Shown in pieces: positions 18,316-51,407 of a stretch of DNA of 56,119 nt (position 1 is its first letter; each line of letters starts with the position of its first letter). Source of the stretch: Pirellula sp. Lineage in GTDB: Bacteria > Planctomycetota > Planctomycetia > Pirellulales > Pirellulaceae. The stretch lies in assembly GCA_021300155.1 (NCBI GenBank), contig JAJTID010000061.1:1-56119 (forward strand), given 5' to 3'. The notes under the pieces are model-generated. The model was given only the letters and a program-made list of their open reading frames with translations, made no database searches and was not told the origin of the DNA. A program made the position numbers and the translations under genes.

Positions 18316-20622
18316 TTATGGAGCGAGATTAAGTCGCGGTTTTCGGGACCGGATCAACTCACTTTCGTAGGCTTCACGGGCCGTGGTCGAAAGCGCTGGT
18401 GAACCGGGCCCAAAAACGTGCATCTCCAGCGTAATTCGATCCAGGTCTTGCTCTCCAAGATACTTGGCGAGCGATTTGCGATCCGATCCCGAAAGATGCT
18501 TGGTCAGTCTTGTTCGCAGATTGTTCGATTGACCAATGTACAAGTAACCAGTGCTATCACGAAAAATATAGACTCCGGGTTGCTCAGAGATGCTATCCAG
18601 ATTCTCCAAGACTTCTCCGATCGGCATTTCGTGAATTGTGGCGTGCCAATCAGTTACGCGTTGTAGAAGCTCTGGTTTTAGCGCACGTGACTTTCGCAAT
18701 TTCAATGCCGCTTTCCGAAGGGAGTAAGCGTCATTCGAATTAGCGATCGCGAGTCCAATCGAATCGAACTCTTTGAGCAGTTCAGGATCCACGAACCACT
18801 GATCTGATGCAATGGAGTAGCGATCGTGCATCAACCTGCTAGCTATTTCTGCAGCGACCAAGAATTCATCGACGTCAGAATCGCTCCGCCGCGTGGATTT
18901 CACATCGAGTTTGTCCGATTTTCGCAATTGAACCAATCGTTGCAGCAACTCTTTGTCCGAGCGTTTAGATGTCCCCGCCCCACCTAGTTCTCTACAGGCA
19001 TTCAGGAAACTGGCGCGACGTTCATCGTGGATCAAGACTTCGTCCACACTCCATCCATCATGGGATCGTTCAAACGCTTGGCGCAGCTTGGCATCTTCTT
19101 CCGCACTGAACTTGACGGACTCCGAAGAGGAAAGTCTTGCTTCTTGCATAGCCTGCAATGAGTGGCTGCACACAATACCGATAACGCAAGCAAGCAGTAG
19201 GACAGACAATGCGCTGGACGTTGCGATCTTTTCCGCCGTCATTCTTGCAAGTCGAATGCACTGAGGAATCCCGACCCCGTCGAATGCATTGCCGATGATA
19301 CTTAAGTTCTTCGTCGATTCTAAATGATTGCGAATGTCTTGGACGACATTGCAATGGCCGATCAAATACTGAGGCATAGCACTATTCCAGCGAACCAATT
19401 TCTGCCACATCGGAGGGCTCGTTACTCCCAATAAAGACTTCGACTCCTTGATCGCAATCGCGAGCAACGATTCGTCTGACTGGTCCATCAGTTCCGGCCG
19501 GACCGCACCGCCCATGAAGACTCGCGCGAGGACTGTATCGGCAGGGCAACGCTCCGCATACTTCTCGCTCGATAGGCTAATCGCTAAGGTATCTCGATTC
19601 TCCACCTTGGGAATCACGATTCCAAAGCACATGGACTCCGGGCGGATCTCACTTTTTCGAATTGCCAGTATCGCAACTGCGGAAGATGCATACGGAATTC
19701 GATCAAGCAACGCGGAAGTGTCTGGGTTGACACCTTCAATTAACTTAGAAGCGACCCAACTGGGAGTCGCTACGCAAACATGATCGTATTCCTTATCGAT
19801 CAAAGCTGAGTTGTTCGACGCGATTTTTAGTTTGCCGTTGGATGTATAGGCTAGATTATCGACTTTCGTGCTCAGATGAAGTTGGCTTTTGAGTTGTGCG
19901 CGAATCGTGTTCATCCACCATGACATTCCAAGCTTCGGTGCCATGAACTGATCGTACCGTGCTCCAGTCGCTTTCCTTGCCATCGTGTCACTGCGTTGTT
20001 CGCTTTTTCTCTTGGCGAAGGCGGCACGTATCAGTCCTCCATGGCTCTTTTCCATCTCGACAAACTGCGCCATCGTCGCTTTCATGCTGAGCGTCTCTGA
20101 TCTCGCAGTAAAGATGCCTCCGACGATCGGCTCCACAAGACGATCAAAGCACTCGCGTCCAAGGCGTCTCACAGCAAACGACTCAACACTCTCGTCTTCG
20201 TCGAGACGTCGAGCCTTGACGAAATACTCGCCCAGTATGCGAAGGCGCCCAGGCAACGATAGGATTGGCGACATAAGAATTGCGGCCATTTGGGTAGGTT
20301 GCATGAGCGAGAAGCCGTTAGGTATCGGATAGACTCGCCCTGCTTGGACAACTTGCGCGAAGCGGTACTTGGGATTAGGAGAGACAAACTCGTTCCGAAT
20401 CCCCATCCCTTCGATAAGCTTGAGTCCATCGGGTGCGAGTGTCGCGATATTGTCTGCTCCCAACTCGGCCAAAAATGGCGACTCCGTATGAGTTTGAATA
20501 ACACCGCCGACTCGGTCCGTTGCTTCGATCAAATCGATATGGGCGTTGGGAAGGAGTCGTTCCAAGTACCAGGCACAGGACAAACCGCTGACACCCGCAC
20601 CGATTATTGCAATTTTCGCCAC
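18316..20622 (-). CDS. hemY: Protoporphyrinogen oxidase fused to TM segment and GIY-YIG nuclease domain
   Basis: A 768-residue fusion. Residues 1-467 are an oxygen-dependent protoporphyrinogen oxidase (protoporphyrinogen IX to protoporphyrin IX): FAD-binding IAIIGAGVSGLSCAWYLE, LIEATDRVGGVIQT, ELGADNI, LVEPIVGGIFTARSETLSM and the usual end, NAFDGVGIPQCIRLARMTAEKI. Right after comes a hydrophobic stretch that looks like a signal peptide or TM helix (SALSVLLLACVIGIVCSHSLQA), then about 190 unassigned residues, and from residue 681 a complete GIY-YIG domain: PGVYIF, YLYIGQ, the arginine in NLRTRL, the glutamate in REAYESELI and RKPRLN. The ORF is continuous with no stop at the junction; an in-frame ATG at 19242 (M461) would start a signal-peptide GIY-YIG protein. 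I use the GTG at 20622, which gives VAKIAIIGAG; an upstream TTG at 20703 adds 27 unlikely residues. Not known to me in this arrangement. Confidence 0.85.
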   Translation of the reverse strand: MAKIAIIGAGVSGLSCAWYLERLLPNAHIDLIEATDRVGGVIQTHTESPFLAELGADNIATLAPDGLKLIEGMGIRNEFVSPNPKYRFAQVVQAGRVYPIPNGFSLMQPTQMAAILMSPILSLPGRLRILGEYFVKARRLDEDESVESFAVRRLGRECFDRLVEPIVGGIFTARSETLSMKATMAQFVEMEKSHGGLIRAAFAKRKSEQRSDTMARKATGARYDQFMAPKLGMSWWMNTIRAQLKSQLHLSTKVDNLAYTSNGKLKIASNNSALIDKEYDHVCVATPSWVASKLIEGVNPDTSALLDRIPYASSAVAILAIRKSEIRPESMCFGIVIPKVENRDTLAISLSSEKYAERCPADTVLARVFMGGAVRPELMDQSDESLLAIAIKESKSLLGVTSPPMWQKLVRWNSAMPQYLIGHCNVVQDIRNHLESTKNLSIIGNAFDGVGIPQCIRLARMTAEKIATSSALSVLLLACVIGIVCSHSLQAMQEARLSSSESVKFSAEEDAKLRQAFERSHDGWSVDEVLIHDERRASFLNACRELGGAGTSKRSDKELLQRLVQLRKSDKLDVKSTRRSDSDVDEFLVAAEIASRLMHDRYSIASDQWFVDPELLKEFDSIGLAIANSNDAYSLRKAALKLRKSRALKPELLQRVTDWHATIHEMPIGEVLENLDSISEQPGVYIFRDSTGYLYIGQSNNLRTRLTKHLSGSDRKSLAKYLGEQDLDRITLEMHVFGPGSPALSTTAREAYESELIRSRKPRLNLAP

Positions 20623-20732
20623 GCCATCGTTCTCAAACTCGTGTATGAAGTGGCAGATCGACAGATAGGATACTGAGGACCGGATAGACCGAGCGAGTAT
20701 CAACTGATGTCGAATGCCAAAACGCCAGCTAG

Positions 20733-22970: not shown

Positions 22971-23522
22971 TTATTTTGCGGGCTTGTCCGGCGCTTTGTT
23001 TTCTTTGCGATAATCCCACGGAGCCGTTGGCGAACTATTTTTCCACAGTCCTTTCTTAGCTTCTTTCGCTTCCGTTTCCAATTTCGCCAAGGCTTCGGAT
23101 TTGTTGTAGCGTTTAAAATGCCAAGCCATTCCCGACTTTAGCATTTCCGAATTGATGTGTGTTTCGCCAACGTAAACTTGGGCTAGCAGTCGCTCAAAGT
23201 TATCCTTGGCTTTCCAGCTAATCCATAGTTCCTTTTTCTCGATCATTTTCGCCAGCGCCTCGGACGATTCTTTTCCGAACTCCTGCTTCAATTCTGGAGC
23301 GTCGAGCCCCTCAAGCTGGACTTCGTACTCTTTGTTGTCCTTGGGATCCAAGACAAGAACGGAATCGCCATCGATCACCCGCTTAACCGTCACCTGTAGG
23401 GTCGTCTCAGGCTTCGGTCCGTCGGTCTTTTCTTGAGATTTCCCTGGAACAGGAAGCATGAGAGGACATCCCAAACTTAGTGCTGTAACAATGCTGTGAA
23501 ACAGCCTGAAAAACCCGTTCAT
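22971..23522 (-). CDS. Exported thermonuclease (SNase)-like protein
   Basis: A 183-residue staphylococcal-nuclease-fold protein with a likely signal peptide (FHSIVTALSLGCPLMLPVPG) and a K/P-rich tail. Matching to SNase: VIDGDSVLV (D51, D53) holds the Ca2+-binding aspartates, LDAPE has D74 and E77 (SNase D40 and E43), and FERLLAQVY gives R111 (SNase R87). However, the residue equal to SNase R35 is Q69 in VQLEGLDAPE, so one catalytic arginine is missing. It may be a weak nuclease, or bind nucleic acids or protein without cutting. The ATG at 23522 is the only sensible start. It is leftward, ahead of tRNA-Asp but 160 nt away. Confidence 0.85.
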   Translation of the reverse strand: MNGFFRLFHSIVTALSLGCPLMLPVPGKSQEKTDGPKPETTLQVTVKRVIDGDSVLVLDPKDNKEYEVQLEGLDAPELKQEFGKESSEALAKMIEKKELWISWKAKDNFERLLAQVYVGETHINSEMLKSGMAWHFKRYNKSEALAKLETEAKEAKKGLWKNSSPTAPWDYRKENKAPDKPAK

Positions 23523-30019: not shown

Positions 30020-30211
30020 CTCGAGTCCTTTTGCTTGCGCCCATAATCCGCTTCCTCGTCCTATTTCACCAAAAACCCACTGGATGAGGCAGTCCAATTC
30101 GAGGCGCCCGGGAAGTTAGTTCAGTTCTCACCATTGTAGCTTAGAGGAAAATCAGGAGAATCAGTAGAAGTCGTTGATTTGGCGACTTCCATTTTTCCTT
30201 TGAAAGCGACC

Positions 30212-31663
30212 ATGCGAATTCCTCCGAATCTTCGAGAGATGTTCCCATTTCCAGTTGAGACCATCAAGCAATTGGCTCATATAGTCGGGCAACCTCAACT
30301 GGTCTCCGCCCTAAAAGAGGCAGCAGAAAAGGTAGGGATCAAGGAGCCGTTTGGGCCAGGTGGAGTTCAGCAAATTCTCCAACAGGCCGGTCGATGGGTC
30401 GATGCGGTCGCCGAGGGCTTTGCTTTGCGATCGGGTTCACAGTCCGGCATTGCCGGTGTGAATGCGACTGGCGAGATGTTCTCTCACCGATGGAGCAACA
30501 TGCCAACTTCCCCGGTGAATTCACAGGCATGGTTGGAACTCATGGCTTGCTATTCCGATTCGAATGCCTCACATGCCGGTCTTAAATCGCTCATTCTCAA
30601 ACTCACGGGTGCGGAAGAAGTATTGATTCTGTCCAATACCACGGCAGCCCTTCATGGGTTGGCCGCAGCGAATCGAGATGCAATATGGGTCGTTCCGCGT
30701 GTCGACTGTATCAAGATTCCACGTTTCGGGATTACTGGACCGAGCAGCATTCGCGATACACTCGAATTTGCAGGCGTTGAGGTTCGAGAGGTTGGGTCTA
30801 ATCAAGAATGCAATCGCGAGGATATCCAATTCGCGGTTGCTCCATGTGCTTCTGCCTCATCCACATCGGCGATCGGGCAAACAACGATCGGCCAATCCTC
30901 GACTACCTTGATCGCAACCTCACCCAACTCTCTGGTAGAGGATTTTCGAGAGTCGCATATCAAGAATTTAACCGATATTGCAACCCAATCAGGAGCTCTC
31001 TTGGTTCGGTTGTTGTTCAATGCCCACTTGCAAAAGATCTCAAGGCTAACGATTTCCACCTCGGTTGTTTCCGAGCAGTGGACATCAGCTAATGACATTC
31101 TTTTGGTTCCATGCGATGGCTTCCTCGGTGGAACGGAAGCGTGCCTCGTTCTTGTCCAAAAGAAACTTCCTTTTTGGCAGGCTTTGCAACGCATCGTCCA
31201 AGTGGCTGGCCTGGAAGCGAGTAGCCAGCAGCAAGCGTTTTTGCTGCGATCGCTTCGAATGTGCGAGACTGCAGACCAATGGGAGAAAACACTCCTAGGG
31301 CAGTGCCTGACCAACAATGTCGAGAACCTCAAGAGTCGTGCAGATCGATTGGCGATTCAACTCTCAGGGACCAGCAAAATCGAGAGAGCTGTCGTAGTGT
31401 CAAAGCCATGTCGCATTGGCACGGGCGTTTGGATGAATGAAAAGCTCGAGAGCAGCGTCTTGCAGTTGTTCCCAAGGTCTTCGTCGGTCGGTTCGCTACG
31501 ATCGTACCTTGAGTCAACGGAACGTCCGATTTGGGCGAATGCTTATGCGGATCACATCGAGTTAGTACTGCGTACTATGGATCCAGACGAGGATCGTTAC
31601 GTTGCTCAGCGTCTTAGCGATGAGCCGACTGATTCTGATGCACGGACCGATAGCGAATCGTGA
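30212..31663 (+). CDS. SelA-like fold-type-I PLP protein lacking the cofactor lysine
   Basis: A 483-residue cytoplasmic protein resembling L-seryl-tRNA(Sec) selenium transferase (SelA) in order and spacing of motifs: SGIAGVNATGEMFSHRWSN (SelA has INATGxxLHTNLGRA), LILKLTGAEEVLILSNTTAA (SelA LxxLTGAExAxVVNNNAAA) and DILLVPCDGFLGGTEACLVL (SelA DxVxFSGDKLLGGPQAGxIV). In the last one the PLP-binding lysine of GDKLLGG is replaced by glycine (CDGFLGG). So the protein probably cannot form the internal aldimine; it may be a pseudoenzyme or have a new role. I prefer the ATG at 30212; a TTG at 30179 adds 11 residues. No selB, selD or tRNA-Sec is visible. The last 58 bp overlap the convergent gene at 31606. 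Confidence 0.75.
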   Translation: MRIPPNLREMFPFPVETIKQLAHIVGQPQLVSALKEAAEKVGIKEPFGPGGVQQILQQAGRWVDAVAEGFALRSGSQSGIAGVNATGEMFSHRWSNMPTSPVNSQAWLELMACYSDSNASHAGLKSLILKLTGAEEVLILSNTTAALHGLAAANRDAIWVVPRVDCIKIPRFGITGPSSIRDTLEFAGVEVREVGSNQECNREDIQFAVAPCASASSTSAIGQTTIGQSSTTLIATSPNSLVEDFRESHIKNLTDIATQSGALLVRLLFNAHLQKISRLTISTSVVSEQWTSANDILLVPCDGFLGGTEACLVLVQKKLPFWQALQRIVQVAGLEASSQQQAFLLRSLRMCETADQWEKTLLGQCLTNNVENLKSRADRLAIQLSGTSKIERAVVVSKPCRIGTGVWMNEKLESSVLQLFPRSSSVGSLRSYLESTERPIWANAYADHIELVLRTMDPDEDRYVAQRLSDEPTDSDARTDSES

Positions 31664-48119: not shown

Positions 48120-51100
48120 ATGCGTGGAAAATGGTGGCATGTTGATACCGAAACGCACACGGACGGTCCACAACGCATCGTATGTGATTTGTGCCCTCGC
48201 CAATGTCGGATGAAGGAAGGCGATCGTGGCTTCTGTTTCGTTCGCAAGATCGAGAACCATCGTATGGTTCTAGACACCTATGGCAAAAGCACCGGCTTCT
48301 GTATCGATCCCATTGAGAAAAAGCCACTCAATCATTTTTATCCTGGATCAAGCGTACTTTCGTTCGGTACCGCTGGCTGTAACCTCGGTTGCCAGTTTTG
48401 TCAGAATTGGGACATTTCCAAATCTCGTGAGGTAGCCAAACTCAGCGCTATCGCGGAACCCGAGACTATCGCCAATGCTGCTTGTGAACTCGACTGCCGA
48501 AGCGTAGCGTTCACCTACAATGATCCCGTCATTTGGGCAGAGTATGCCATCGATACTGCAATCGCGTGCCATGATCGTGGGATCATGACGGTCGCGGTGA
48601 CGGCTGGCTACATGATGCCTGAAGCCCGCCGCGAGTTCTATCAGCATATCGATGCAGCCAACGTAGACCTCAAAGCGTTCTCAGAACAGTTCTATGAAAA
48701 AATCACTTACTCTCAGTTGCAGCCTGTCTTGGAAACACTCCAGTTTCTTAAGCAGGAAACGAATGTCTGGTTTGAAATTACCAACTTGGTCATTCCCGGC
48801 GCCAATGATAGTGCCGATGAGTTAAATCGCATGTGCGATTGGATCGTAAAGCACCTCGGCGTCGATGTTCCCATTCACTTTTCCGCATTCCATCCAGACT
48901 TCAGGATGATGGATCGACCACGAACGACTCACGAGAAACTACTCGAAGCCTACGCGATCGCCAAGCAATCGGGGATCCGCTATCCGTACGTCGGAAATGT
49001 AAACGACGTCAAGCACGGTTCTACGTACTGTTATGGCTGTAGCAGATTGCTCATTGAGCGGGATTGGTATGAACTGGGTAATTATAACCTGAAGGGAAAA
49101 CTTTGCGGTTCATGCGGAGCAGAGCAGTCGGGACGATTTGCAGAGCGACCAGGTACGTGGGGACGCAAACGTCAATCAGTAAACCTGAATTCTTTCCAAA
49201 CTATGTCCAACAATGCCAGAAACCATCGGCTATCTTTGCCTGTATTGGAACAGCAGACGAAATCAGATTCGTATCAATCTACAAGAACTCAAACTAACCA
49301 CTCCACGGAGGATGCCATGGCTATCTCGCCCCCAGTAAAGTTGTCGATGTTAAAACTCAGCGACCTGTCGGAGCAACAACAGTCTGCAATCCAGAGAGCG
49401 GCTCAGTCTGTCGTGATTCACGCCGTGATCGGACGCAAACTCCCTGCGGATTGGAGCGACGGGCTCGGGGAATTGGGGGATCAGAACGTTTTCGGCTTCT
49501 TCACAACGCTGAAAAGAAAAAAACAACTTCGCGGTTGCTGTGGATTTCTCGGCAAACCGACTACACTGCGCGAAGCAATCTTGAGCTCCGCACAACGCAC
49601 CGCGAAAGATGACAATCGAATGGTTGCTATCTCGCCAACAGAACTTCCTTACTTGTCGTTGAGTGTCTCACTGCTGGCCGCACCGATTGTTACCTCTGTT
49701 TCTGCAACAGAAAGAGAAAACGCATTTCAGATCGGAAAACATGGATTGAGAATCACCCGTGGCAATCAGTCGGGCCTCCTCCTACCGAGCGTATCGCTCG
49801 AACAAAACTGGACCCCAAATCAATTTCTAGAAGGTGTTTGCCGCAAAGCAGGCTTACCAGAGTCCGCTTGGACTGACCCCTCCAATCAATTGGAAACGTT
49901 CGAGGGGCTGGTGATCGACGGAGGTATCGACGCGGACGCGCTTCCTGAAACGATGCCAACACCAAAACTCCCAGGAACCATGCAGAGTCTCCTGAAACTG
50001 AAACAGGTAGCCACCAGCAACATCATCGCCATGTCCAAAGGGGGAACTCCCACTTACGTCGCGATGGACGCCATGGACGGTACCGTCAATGGAATCGTTT
50101 TAACGGTCCGTGATGTCAAGGCCGATAAGGTGATCGCCAACTGGATTCAAACCTCACTCCGCCCCGGGGCCGCACTTCAAGCCAGCCTTTTTGACCTATG
50201 CAAAGCTGCCGCTGACACTCTTTCCAAAACACGCTTTTCAGAAGAAGTTAGTATCGAGATCGAGCTCACTGTACTATTCGACCCCGTTCATCATGGCTCG
50301 ATAAACTACGATGATTGGGATGGTGATGTCGTCCGCGAAGCGATGTCGCATTGCGAAATGTCCGAGGTTCAACCAGCGAATCGTGCTGTGATCGCACTCT
50401 GCAGCGATCGTTGCTCGATTGCCTTTGATGCAAATAAGTCGGTGCAGCAATTGACAAACGAGGCGGTGCTGCCTCTGCGGACTCGAAGAAATCCAGTCGC
50501 GGTTTTCTCGATGACATGTATGTCTACGATCAACTCACTCATGGCAAGCAACGCGCCACAACCTTTCCCCGAAAGCAAAGAAAGATTGCCCGCTGTTGCG
50601 GATCGATTCTACCCAGCATCCGGTTCGATTCGACAAACTCTCTTGAGCAAGTTCAAAGCCAAGACGGGGGATTCCGAAAAAGTACACGCGTATGCGATCA
50701 TGACACCGCACGCGGGTTTAAACTTCAGCGGTCAAGTTGCGACAGACGTTTGGAACCGCGTGCAATTGCCGCAAACTCTCTTGATCATCGGTCCAAAGCA
50801 TACGGCGCATGGTTGTGACTGGGCTGTGTCTCCTGCCAGCTCTTGGACGATACCAGAGGGTGGCAGTTGGAAGGCGAATCTCAAGCTAGCCTCTGAGATT
50901 GCGAAAGAGGTCGAAGGTATGCAACTCGATCTCGGTGCGCATGCAACAGAACACGGAATTGAAGTCCAGCTTCCAATCCTAGAAAGCTTAACTTCCATCG
51001 AAGAACGCCCATCTCTTACTGCCGTGGTAGTGCGCGGAGCTACCTGGGAAGAAATCGAACGGGTGAGCAGTCAATTGGCCAAGATTTTGGAAAAGCAAGA

Positions 51101-51407
51101 GAAATTGCCTTTGCTCGTTATCTCTAGCGACATGAACCATTACGAAGCGGAAGCAGAAAATCGTCGTCGAGATGAATTGGCAATGGAAGCGATGCTAACC
51201 GGTGACCCAAGGCATTTGACTGAAGTTTGCCAAAAAAATTCTATCAGTATGTGCGGACTCGTCCCTGCTGCCATCGTTATGCAGACCTTGATTTCTCTAG
51301 GGAAGAAGTTCCGTGTCGAGCGTGTAAGTTATGAAAATAGCGCGATGCGTGGTGGCGATAAAGAACGCGTTGTCGGTTATGCTGGAATGCTGATCGTCCC
51401 TGTCTAG
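48120..51407 (+). CDS. AmmeMemoRadiSam triple fusion: radical SAM + AMMECR1 + Memo
   Basis: A 1095-residue cytoplasmic protein joining the three parts of the AmmeMemoRadiSam system, normally separate genes. Residues 1-360: radical SAM enzyme with C87-x3-C91-x2-C94 (TAGCNLGCQFCQNW), an N-terminal Cys cluster (C22, C25, C29, C39) and a C-terminal pair of CxxC motifs (YCYGCSRL, LCGSCG). Residues about 362-400: Q/T/S-rich linker. Residues about 405-600: AMMECR1 domain (VFGFFTTLKRKKQLRGCCGF, AILSSAQRTAKDD, ELPYLSLSVSLL, TRGNQSGLLLPSV). Residues about 640-810: a less clear domain. From about 820: Memo domain (LPAVADRFYPASG, MTPHAGLNFSGQVA, IGPKHT, AHATEHGIEVQLP, ISSDMNHYE, SMCGLVP, GYAGMLI). The known system has no settled function. 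An internal GGAGG before M400 may give a separate AMMECR1-Memo protein. Confidence 0.92.
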   Translation: MRGKWWHVDTETHTDGPQRIVCDLCPRQCRMKEGDRGFCFVRKIENHRMVLDTYGKSTGFCIDPIEKKPLNHFYPGSSVLSFGTAGCNLGCQFCQNWDISKSREVAKLSAIAEPETIANAACELDCRSVAFTYNDPVIWAEYAIDTAIACHDRGIMTVAVTAGYMMPEARREFYQHIDAANVDLKAFSEQFYEKITYSQLQPVLETLQFLKQETNVWFEITNLVIPGANDSADELNRMCDWIVKHLGVDVPIHFSAFHPDFRMMDRPRTTHEKLLEAYAIAKQSGIRYPYVGNVNDVKHGSTYCYGCSRLLIERDWYELGNYNLKGKLCGSCGAEQSGRFAERPGTWGRKRQSVNLNSFQTMSNNARNHRLSLPVLEQQTKSDSYQSTRTQTNHSTEDAMAISPPVKLSMLKLSDLSEQQQSAIQRAAQSVVIHAVIGRKLPADWSDGLGELGDQNVFGFFTTLKRKKQLRGCCGFLGKPTTLREAILSSAQRTAKDDNRMVAISPTELPYLSLSVSLLAAPIVTSVSATERENAFQIGKHGLRITRGNQSGLLLPSVSLEQNWTPNQFLEGVCRKAGLPESAWTDPSNQLETFEGLVIDGGIDADALPETMPTPKLPGTMQSLLKLKQVATSNIIAMSKGGTPTYVAMDAMDGTVNGIVLTVRDVKADKVIANWIQTSLRPGAALQASLFDLCKAAADTLSKTRFSEEVSIEIELTVLFDPVHHGSINYDDWDGDVVREAMSHCEMSEVQPANRAVIALCSDRCSIAFDANKSVQQLTNEAVLPLRTRRNPVAVFSMTCMSTINSLMASNAPQPFPESKERLPAVADRFYPASGSIRQTLLSKFKAKTGDSEKVHAYAIMTPHAGLNFSGQVATDVWNRVQLPQTLLIIGPKHTAHGCDWAVSPASSWTIPEGGSWKANLKLASEIAKEVEGMQLDLGAHATEHGIEVQLPILESLTSIEERPSLTAVVVRGATWEEIERVSSQLAKILEKQEKLPLLVISSDMNHYEAEAENRRRDELAMEAMLTGDPRHLTEVCQKNSISMCGLVPAAIVMQTLISLGKKFRVERVSYENSAMRGGDKERVVGYAGMLIVPV
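49307..49319 (+). promoter_or_regulatory. Internal Shine-Dalgarno before the AMMECR1 domain
   Basis: GGAGG at 49307-49311, 5 nt, then ATG at 49317-49319, in frame with the fusion gene (M400, sequence MAISPPVKLSM). It is one of the strongest ribosome sites in the window and lies exactly at the end of the linker. Initiation here would yield a 696-residue AMMECR1-Memo protein lacking the radical SAM part. Confidence 0.55.

Follow-up and report, generated by a model that had tools for sequence, protein, structure and literature searches.

The question raised by this locus is whether an open reading frame that joins a haem-pathway oxidase of the HemY type to a GIY-YIG nuclease domain is one real gene and, if it is, how such a pair could have come together and where in the cell its second half would act. 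The window, that is, the whole stretch of DNA analysed, comprises 56,119 nucleotides of Pirellula sp., whose genome is referred to here as G000. The single frame of 18316-20622 described in the original prediction was borne out, with zero stop codons between the parts and both Pfam cut-offs passed. Residue numbers are counted from the GTG at 20622; the same frame stays open further upstream to a TTG at 20703 (795 aa if counted from the TTG). The features of the gene are the following:

18316..20622, minus strand: fusion gene, GTG start at 20622, 768 aa plus stop, stop codon 18316-18318
19225..20622, minus strand: HemY-type protoporphyrinogen or coproporphyrinogen oxidase part (predicted), residues 1-466, Amino_oxidase and TIGR00562 above cut-off
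19144..19242, minus strand: junction, residues 461-493, end of HemY and hydrophobic, signal-peptide-like segment
18655..19104, minus strand: all-helical domain of two tandem repeats, compared as residues 504-576 and 580-652
18337..18579, minus strand: GIY-YIG nuclease domain (predicted), residues 682-762, by Pfam, alignment and Foldseek

The N-terminal part scored 138.7 bits with the Pfam model Amino_oxidase (cut-off 19.8) and 246.9 bits with the NCBIfam model TIGR00562 proto_IX_ox (cut-off 97.85), covering positions 3-465 of the 470 in the model; PRK11883 and PRK12416 have far higher cut-offs, which were not attained (e.g., 258.5 versus 560 bits). The likeness to TIGR00562 extends over the entire N-terminal part and, by this curated cut-off, it is assigned to the HemY-type oxidases, with oxidation of protoporphyrinogen or coproporphyrinogen as the predicted reaction. 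The motif CIRLARMTAEKI, at which the enzyme had been said to end, is present, but it occupies residues 455-466 and does not reach residue 467. Identity to the HemY of HemY-only genomes of the genus was 53-66% for the longer matches and 46-72% for short fragments; the HemY-only rows (n=26) stop between 0 and about 21 residues beyond the junction, whereas the fusion frame continues for 302 residues more. Ferrochelatase was present in the four genomes searched and HemJ was found in none of them, G012 being just 76% complete among these four. No second HemY-like match was seen in G000 except a partial one at 32%, and HemY is probably the sole enzyme for its haem step in this cell.

The loss of one stop codon by sequencing error had been offered as one origin of the frame. 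More generally, the fusion could be an artefact or a read-through free of function, with a stop missed in sequencing or a chance joining to a dead second half. The assemblies are drafts, and positions 1-447 of the window, within a ferrochelatase gene, are 96.6% identical to the terminus of another contig, C225, in this assembly; therefore, close strains seem to be mixed in it. Against this explanation stands a separate genome, G012 (probably "Pirellula sp. isolate Prado161", JALOQS010000055.1), with the same unbroken fusion of 764 aa, 63% identical, with no internal stop and with a GTG start at the aligned position equal to that of G000. Between both genomes the HemY parts showed 68% identity (pS 0.83, pN 0.23), residues 501-768 showed 60% (pS 0.83, pN 0.27), and residues 676-768 showed 70%. 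Synonymous sites are saturated, so dN/dS between the two fusions is not computable; the saturated pS set against the low pN points to purifying selection on both halves, and the catalytic positions were all kept. In the 13 kb gene neighbourhood of G012, no other frame matched the window frames of 8-32 kb; therefore, the fused gene persisted through a change of neighbourhood. Sequencing error is refuted by the G012 fusion together with a fused remnant in a third genome, G024, since two assemblies so far apart cannot share one error, and we consider an artefact or a function-free read-through extremely improbable. The continuous frame, the second species, and the low pN of both halves thus support a true fusion as far as DNA and constraint are concerned.

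Among the 27 genomes of the genus, 25 matched the protein and 24 had HemY, some only in pieces (rows judged by reading); HemY was not found in G003, G005, and G015. The unbroken fusion was seen in G000 and G012 only, and the 30 rows of the HemY tree comprise 26 HemY-only proteins, the 2 fusions, the broken G024 form, and G016, which is cut by the contig end. A scan of contigs with the alignment of the C-terminal part located at least 63 loci (with two short patterns, the window's own genome being possibly left out). Relatives with a stop codon and two adjacent genes were looked for and not found in these 63 loci, some of them short or with incomplete flanks; the module is adjacent to hemY at 2 of the 63, the G012 fusion and the broken G024 form. 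By the searches made, the architecture is new and its enzyme parts are of known kinds; in the literature, covered in part, no work was found joining protoporphyrinogen oxidase and GIY-YIG.

The nearest relative found is G024 (probably "uncultured Pirellula sp. ErkenSummer_bin-0307", CAIOHR010000279.1), whose HemY is about 92-93% identical to that of G000. Its frame retains part of the hydrophobic segment, after which about 600 bases are missing with respect to G000; it then enters the GIY-YIG part out of register and stops, so that the remnant spans two different frames. HemY is intact here (dN/dS of 0.076 versus G000) and the nuclease is broken by the deletion and the frameshift; therefore, HemY was kept without the nuclease in that lineage, and the nuclease half can be lost. 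This broken version in a close relative serves as a comparison for the intact gene.

The catalytic motif of GIY-YIG nucleases is formed by Tyr, Tyr-x-Gly, Arg, His or Tyr, Glu, and Asn. The complete set that had been claimed for the fusion holds, with Y685, Y695, G697, R705, H709, E753, and N765 unchanged throughout an alignment of 72 sequences. The Pfam model GIY-YIG gave 32.6 bits on the fusion (cut-off 22.6) and matched all 72 family members. An AlphaFold2 model of the C-terminal part, built from 72 sequences, had a mean pLDDT of 91.8, and its best Foldseek match was the GIY-YIG domain of UvrC (TM-score 0.77 on the target, E 1.0e-03, probability 1.00), followed by plant GRXS16 (2lwf, TM-score 0.47 on the target) and then by R.Eco29kI; no match fell below E 0.001, and the structural assignment rests on the reported probability and the TM-score. 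Taking into account the Pfam cut-off, the fold, and the catalytic positions, the C-terminal domain is assigned as a GIY-YIG nuclease, which would be expected to cut nucleic acid. The GIY-YIG domain of UvrC/Cho is the closest in solved fold and in sequence, but membership in these excinucleases was rejected, as the fusion scores 20-30 bits with the curated UvrC/Cho models, whose cut-offs are 285-818. Models of defence systems were rejected as well, with weak matches alone and these over the GIY-YIG part (PDC-S14 E 4e-4, UzuA E 6e-4). The GIY-YIG literature, among the matches listed, includes polymorphic toxins and type VI effectors.

The region between the hydrophobic segment and the nuclease had been described as 190 unassigned residues. 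This description did not stand: within the stretch lies a conserved helical domain built from two repeats that resemble each other, each terminating in an LRK motif, and hhalign aligned repeat 1 with repeat 2 at a probability of 95.6, compared with 0.6 when repeat 1 was set against the GIY part as a control. By sequence comparison, this region is a tandem duplication, and it may bind DNA. Besides the two GIY-YIG models, no Pfam family appeared in more than 4 of the 72 members at E<=0.01 (DUF7508 in 4, CANIN in 2, DUF3811 in 1), and the search for solved relatives of the repeat domain returned six UvrC sequences, which match the GIY part, and otherwise just a marginal match to the telomerase subunit Teb2 (E 0.017).

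The closest likeness of the whole C-terminal part is to a family of free-standing proteins of Pirellulaceae (L034 and nearly 70 relatives), which share the repeat domain, the GIY-YIG domain, and the position of the hydrophobic segment. Unlike the fusion, most of them are encoded by frames of 195-432 aa, some truncated where the contig stops; their signal-like stretch is N-terminal, and hemY is not adjacent to them in the 63-locus survey. At E<=1e-30 the family matched in 72 of 241 genomes of the window's own family, apparently Pirellulaceae, from 27 of 68 genera; in four of these 72 no hit was as strong as 1e-50, and in three of the four the hits fall within frames of 627-684 aa. By record name, 62 of the 63 scanned loci are planctomycete. 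In the tree of the C-terminal part (77 rows), G000 and G012 form a pair (97/75) placed beside G002 (99/94), which belongs to the same genus and has a free-standing copy, its hemY being on another contig. In the HemY tree (30 rows), G000 groups with G024 (100/100) and G012 joins them (86/57) within a clade of 100/99. Both trees were drawn by midpoint with long-branch warnings, the SH-aLRT of the C-part pair is 75, and the placement of G012 in the HemY tree is weak; a single capture fits both. On these sequence comparisons, the second half was captured from a Pirellulaceae family whose other members mostly stand alone. Composition gave no sign of foreign origin (GC of 0.517 in HemY and 0.506 in the C-part), and a conserved neighbourhood of the free-standing gene was rejected, since the top neighbour besides the family itself was seen at 8 of 63 loci, which resembles synteny shared by related species. 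Neither on the free-standing exported family, among the matches listed, nor on the family under Planctomycetes and GIY-YIG was any title found in the literature, which was partially covered. The comparison thus reveals in Pirellulaceae a family of GIY-YIG proteins that appear to be exported and whose repeat domain has no convincing Pfam model. The module of this family is carried as well by a DNA methyltransferase, a HicB-domain protein, and a GH16 enzyme.

These recurrences were seen as follows. At L154:1525-3966 (plus strand; G155, same contig as L094), the module is on the C-terminus of a GH16 enzyme of 813 aa with a signal-like start, whose GH16 part gave 69.5 bits with a kappa-carrageenase model, below that model's cut-off. 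In L042 and L054 (scanned) and in L046 and L056 (by eye), the repeat domain and a GIY-YIG-like end come after an N6/N4 DNA methyltransferase, this end scoring above the Pfam cut-off in L042 and below it in L054; frames of 557-652 aa matching the repeat region were present in 11 genomes of the genus, and the methyltransferase-module proteins are possibly single-chain modification-nuclease proteins. In L040 (scanned) and L041 (by eye), a HicB domain precedes the repeat domain and a GIY-YIG-like end; Pfam at E<=0.01 reported HicB alone in L040, with no GIY-YIG match.

The key aspect is then the hydrophobic segment that joins both halves, IATSSALSVLLLACVIGIVCS in G000 and TLLLLCCFGLLLLS in G012, with possible cleavage motifs downstream in both. 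Residues 468-500 are only 19% identical between the two genomes, yet they are in frame and hydrophobic in both, as would be expected of a signal peptide or an anchor. We evaluated the equivalent place in those 59 of 70 references whose start was acceptable and whose length was 275 residues or more. In 55 of the 59 there was an uncharged hydrophobic stretch of >=9 residues, in 54 a core with a loose -3/-1 motif, and in 51 a Lys or Arg ahead of the core; the rule is simple, starts were chosen near the most hydrophobic stretch, and the loose motif rule has no chance control, all of which makes these counts lean upward. As a control, a mature stretch of each of these proteins was put to the hydrophobicity test, which was positive in 0 of 59. 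The relatives without such a stretch are L080, L083, L109, and L124; L102, L113, L117, and L148 begin too far into the frame or at the contig end, and in L101 and L146 the stretch is present and a start by the rule is absent. Because most of the relatives begin with a signal-peptide-like stretch, the segment of the fusion is most likely an inherited signal peptide, now internal. The proposal that the nuclease lies across the membrane from HemY receives indirect support from the same relatives.

Another possibility is that the chain is an uncleaved two-sided membrane protein, in which the segment would hold the chain in the membrane as a transmembrane anchor, HemY being on the inner side and the nuclease tethered on the outer one. 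By the rule used, the hydrophobic stretch of G000 has 21 residues, long enough for an uncleaved anchor, which counts against the reading as a cleaved signal; in addition, the full-length AlphaFold2 model extends the last helix of HemY into the segment as a single helix of residues 452-493, with confidence below 50 from residue 485. This model was built from 23 rows, two of which cover the C-part, and the pLDDT of the latter was about 34-66 in blocks. The stretch of G012, on the contrary, spans 14 residues, with a THA-SG motif after it, and the nearest relatives of the fused module have the segment as an N-terminal signal-like stretch. Considering these data, a permanent anchor seems unlikely, although it is the least unlikely of the alternatives. 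Cutting at the segment, also proposed originally, fits the possible -3/-1 motifs VCS, SHS, and LQA at the junction of G000, and cleavage may occur there as predicted.

The ATG at 19242, pointed out in the original prediction as a start for a separate exported protein, exists just ahead of the hydrophobic segment in G000, and initiation at an internal ATG might give a free nuclease besides the fusion; as no stop divides the parts, it could only add to the fused product. Its role as an independent start is weakened by the alignment: the codon is Thr in G012 and G024, the ATG of G012 comes five codons later, G024 has neither, and by eye there is no Shine-Dalgarno-like motif directly upstream. Two products from this gene are accordingly rather doubtful.

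A third alternative places the nuclease inside the cell, in a cytoplasmic bifunctional protein whose segment is merely seated in the membrane, and perhaps ties it to haem or redox state, in the manner of plant GRXS16. Like the fusion, GRXS16 unites a GIY-YIG nuclease with a redox protein, and its two domains are reported to restrain each other (PMC5890173); unlike the HemY fusion, it has the GIY-YIG domain at the N-terminus and a glutaredoxin as partner. The proteins with the module after a DNA methyltransferase (L042, L054) or HicB (L040) are presumably intracellular, which speaks in favour of this option, but the fused module groups with relatives having signal-like starts, and G024 kept HemY without the nuclease. 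We regard a cytoplasmic protein as improbable, and a functional link between haem and nuclease is not supported.

The explanation that we propose, for which we would give an even chance, is that of a captured exported nuclease behind hemY. A free-standing exported GIY-YIG gene would have landed in frame behind hemY, with no stop, in an ancestor within the Pirellula-like genus; that the module is also fused to the GH16 enzyme of L154, with its signal-like start, supports capture. Against it, just two intact fusions are known (G000 and G012), and G024 lost the nuclease. Since no stop separates the parts, finishing HemY would always give the fused chain, and the nuclease part would be made by every ribosome that completes HemY. 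HemY would remain on the cytoplasmic side, while the old signal peptide, now internal, would carry the repeat and GIY-YIG part over the membrane; signal peptidase would then probably free this part, which could cut nucleic acid. The two activities need not cooperate, and we infer that they do not: the gene would provide an accessory exported nuclease tied to the expression of the probable sole enzyme of a haem step.

The fbcH precursor of cytochromes b and c1 in Bradyrhizobium is one bacterial chain split at an internal signal sequence. Both products of fbcH belong to one complex, whereas HemY and the nuclease are partners without known link; no useful title on the internal signal peptide or on the fbcH precedent was found among the literature matches listed. 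That the locus encodes a cellular bacterial polyprotein, in which a cytoplasmic haem enzyme and an exported nuclease form one chain that signal peptidase splits at an internal signal peptide, is a tentative reading that we hold with somewhat less than even confidence. If it is true, nuclease export would be locked one-to-one to the synthesis of the haem enzyme; and if capture is right, a bacterium can capture a secreted enzyme downstream of a housekeeping gene and yet export it through an internal signal peptide.

Other genes of the window were also observed. An SNase-family protein with a signal-like start is located at 22971-23522 (minus strand), 2.3 kb upstream of the fusion, and a relative, 66% identical over 145 aa, adjoins hemY in G017 (L161:4452-4964). 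A SelA-family protein is encoded at 30179-31663 (plus strand), and the frame at 48120-51407 (plus strand) encodes a protein of 1095 aa with all three AmmeMemoRadiSam parts, radical SAM, AMMECR1, and Memo.
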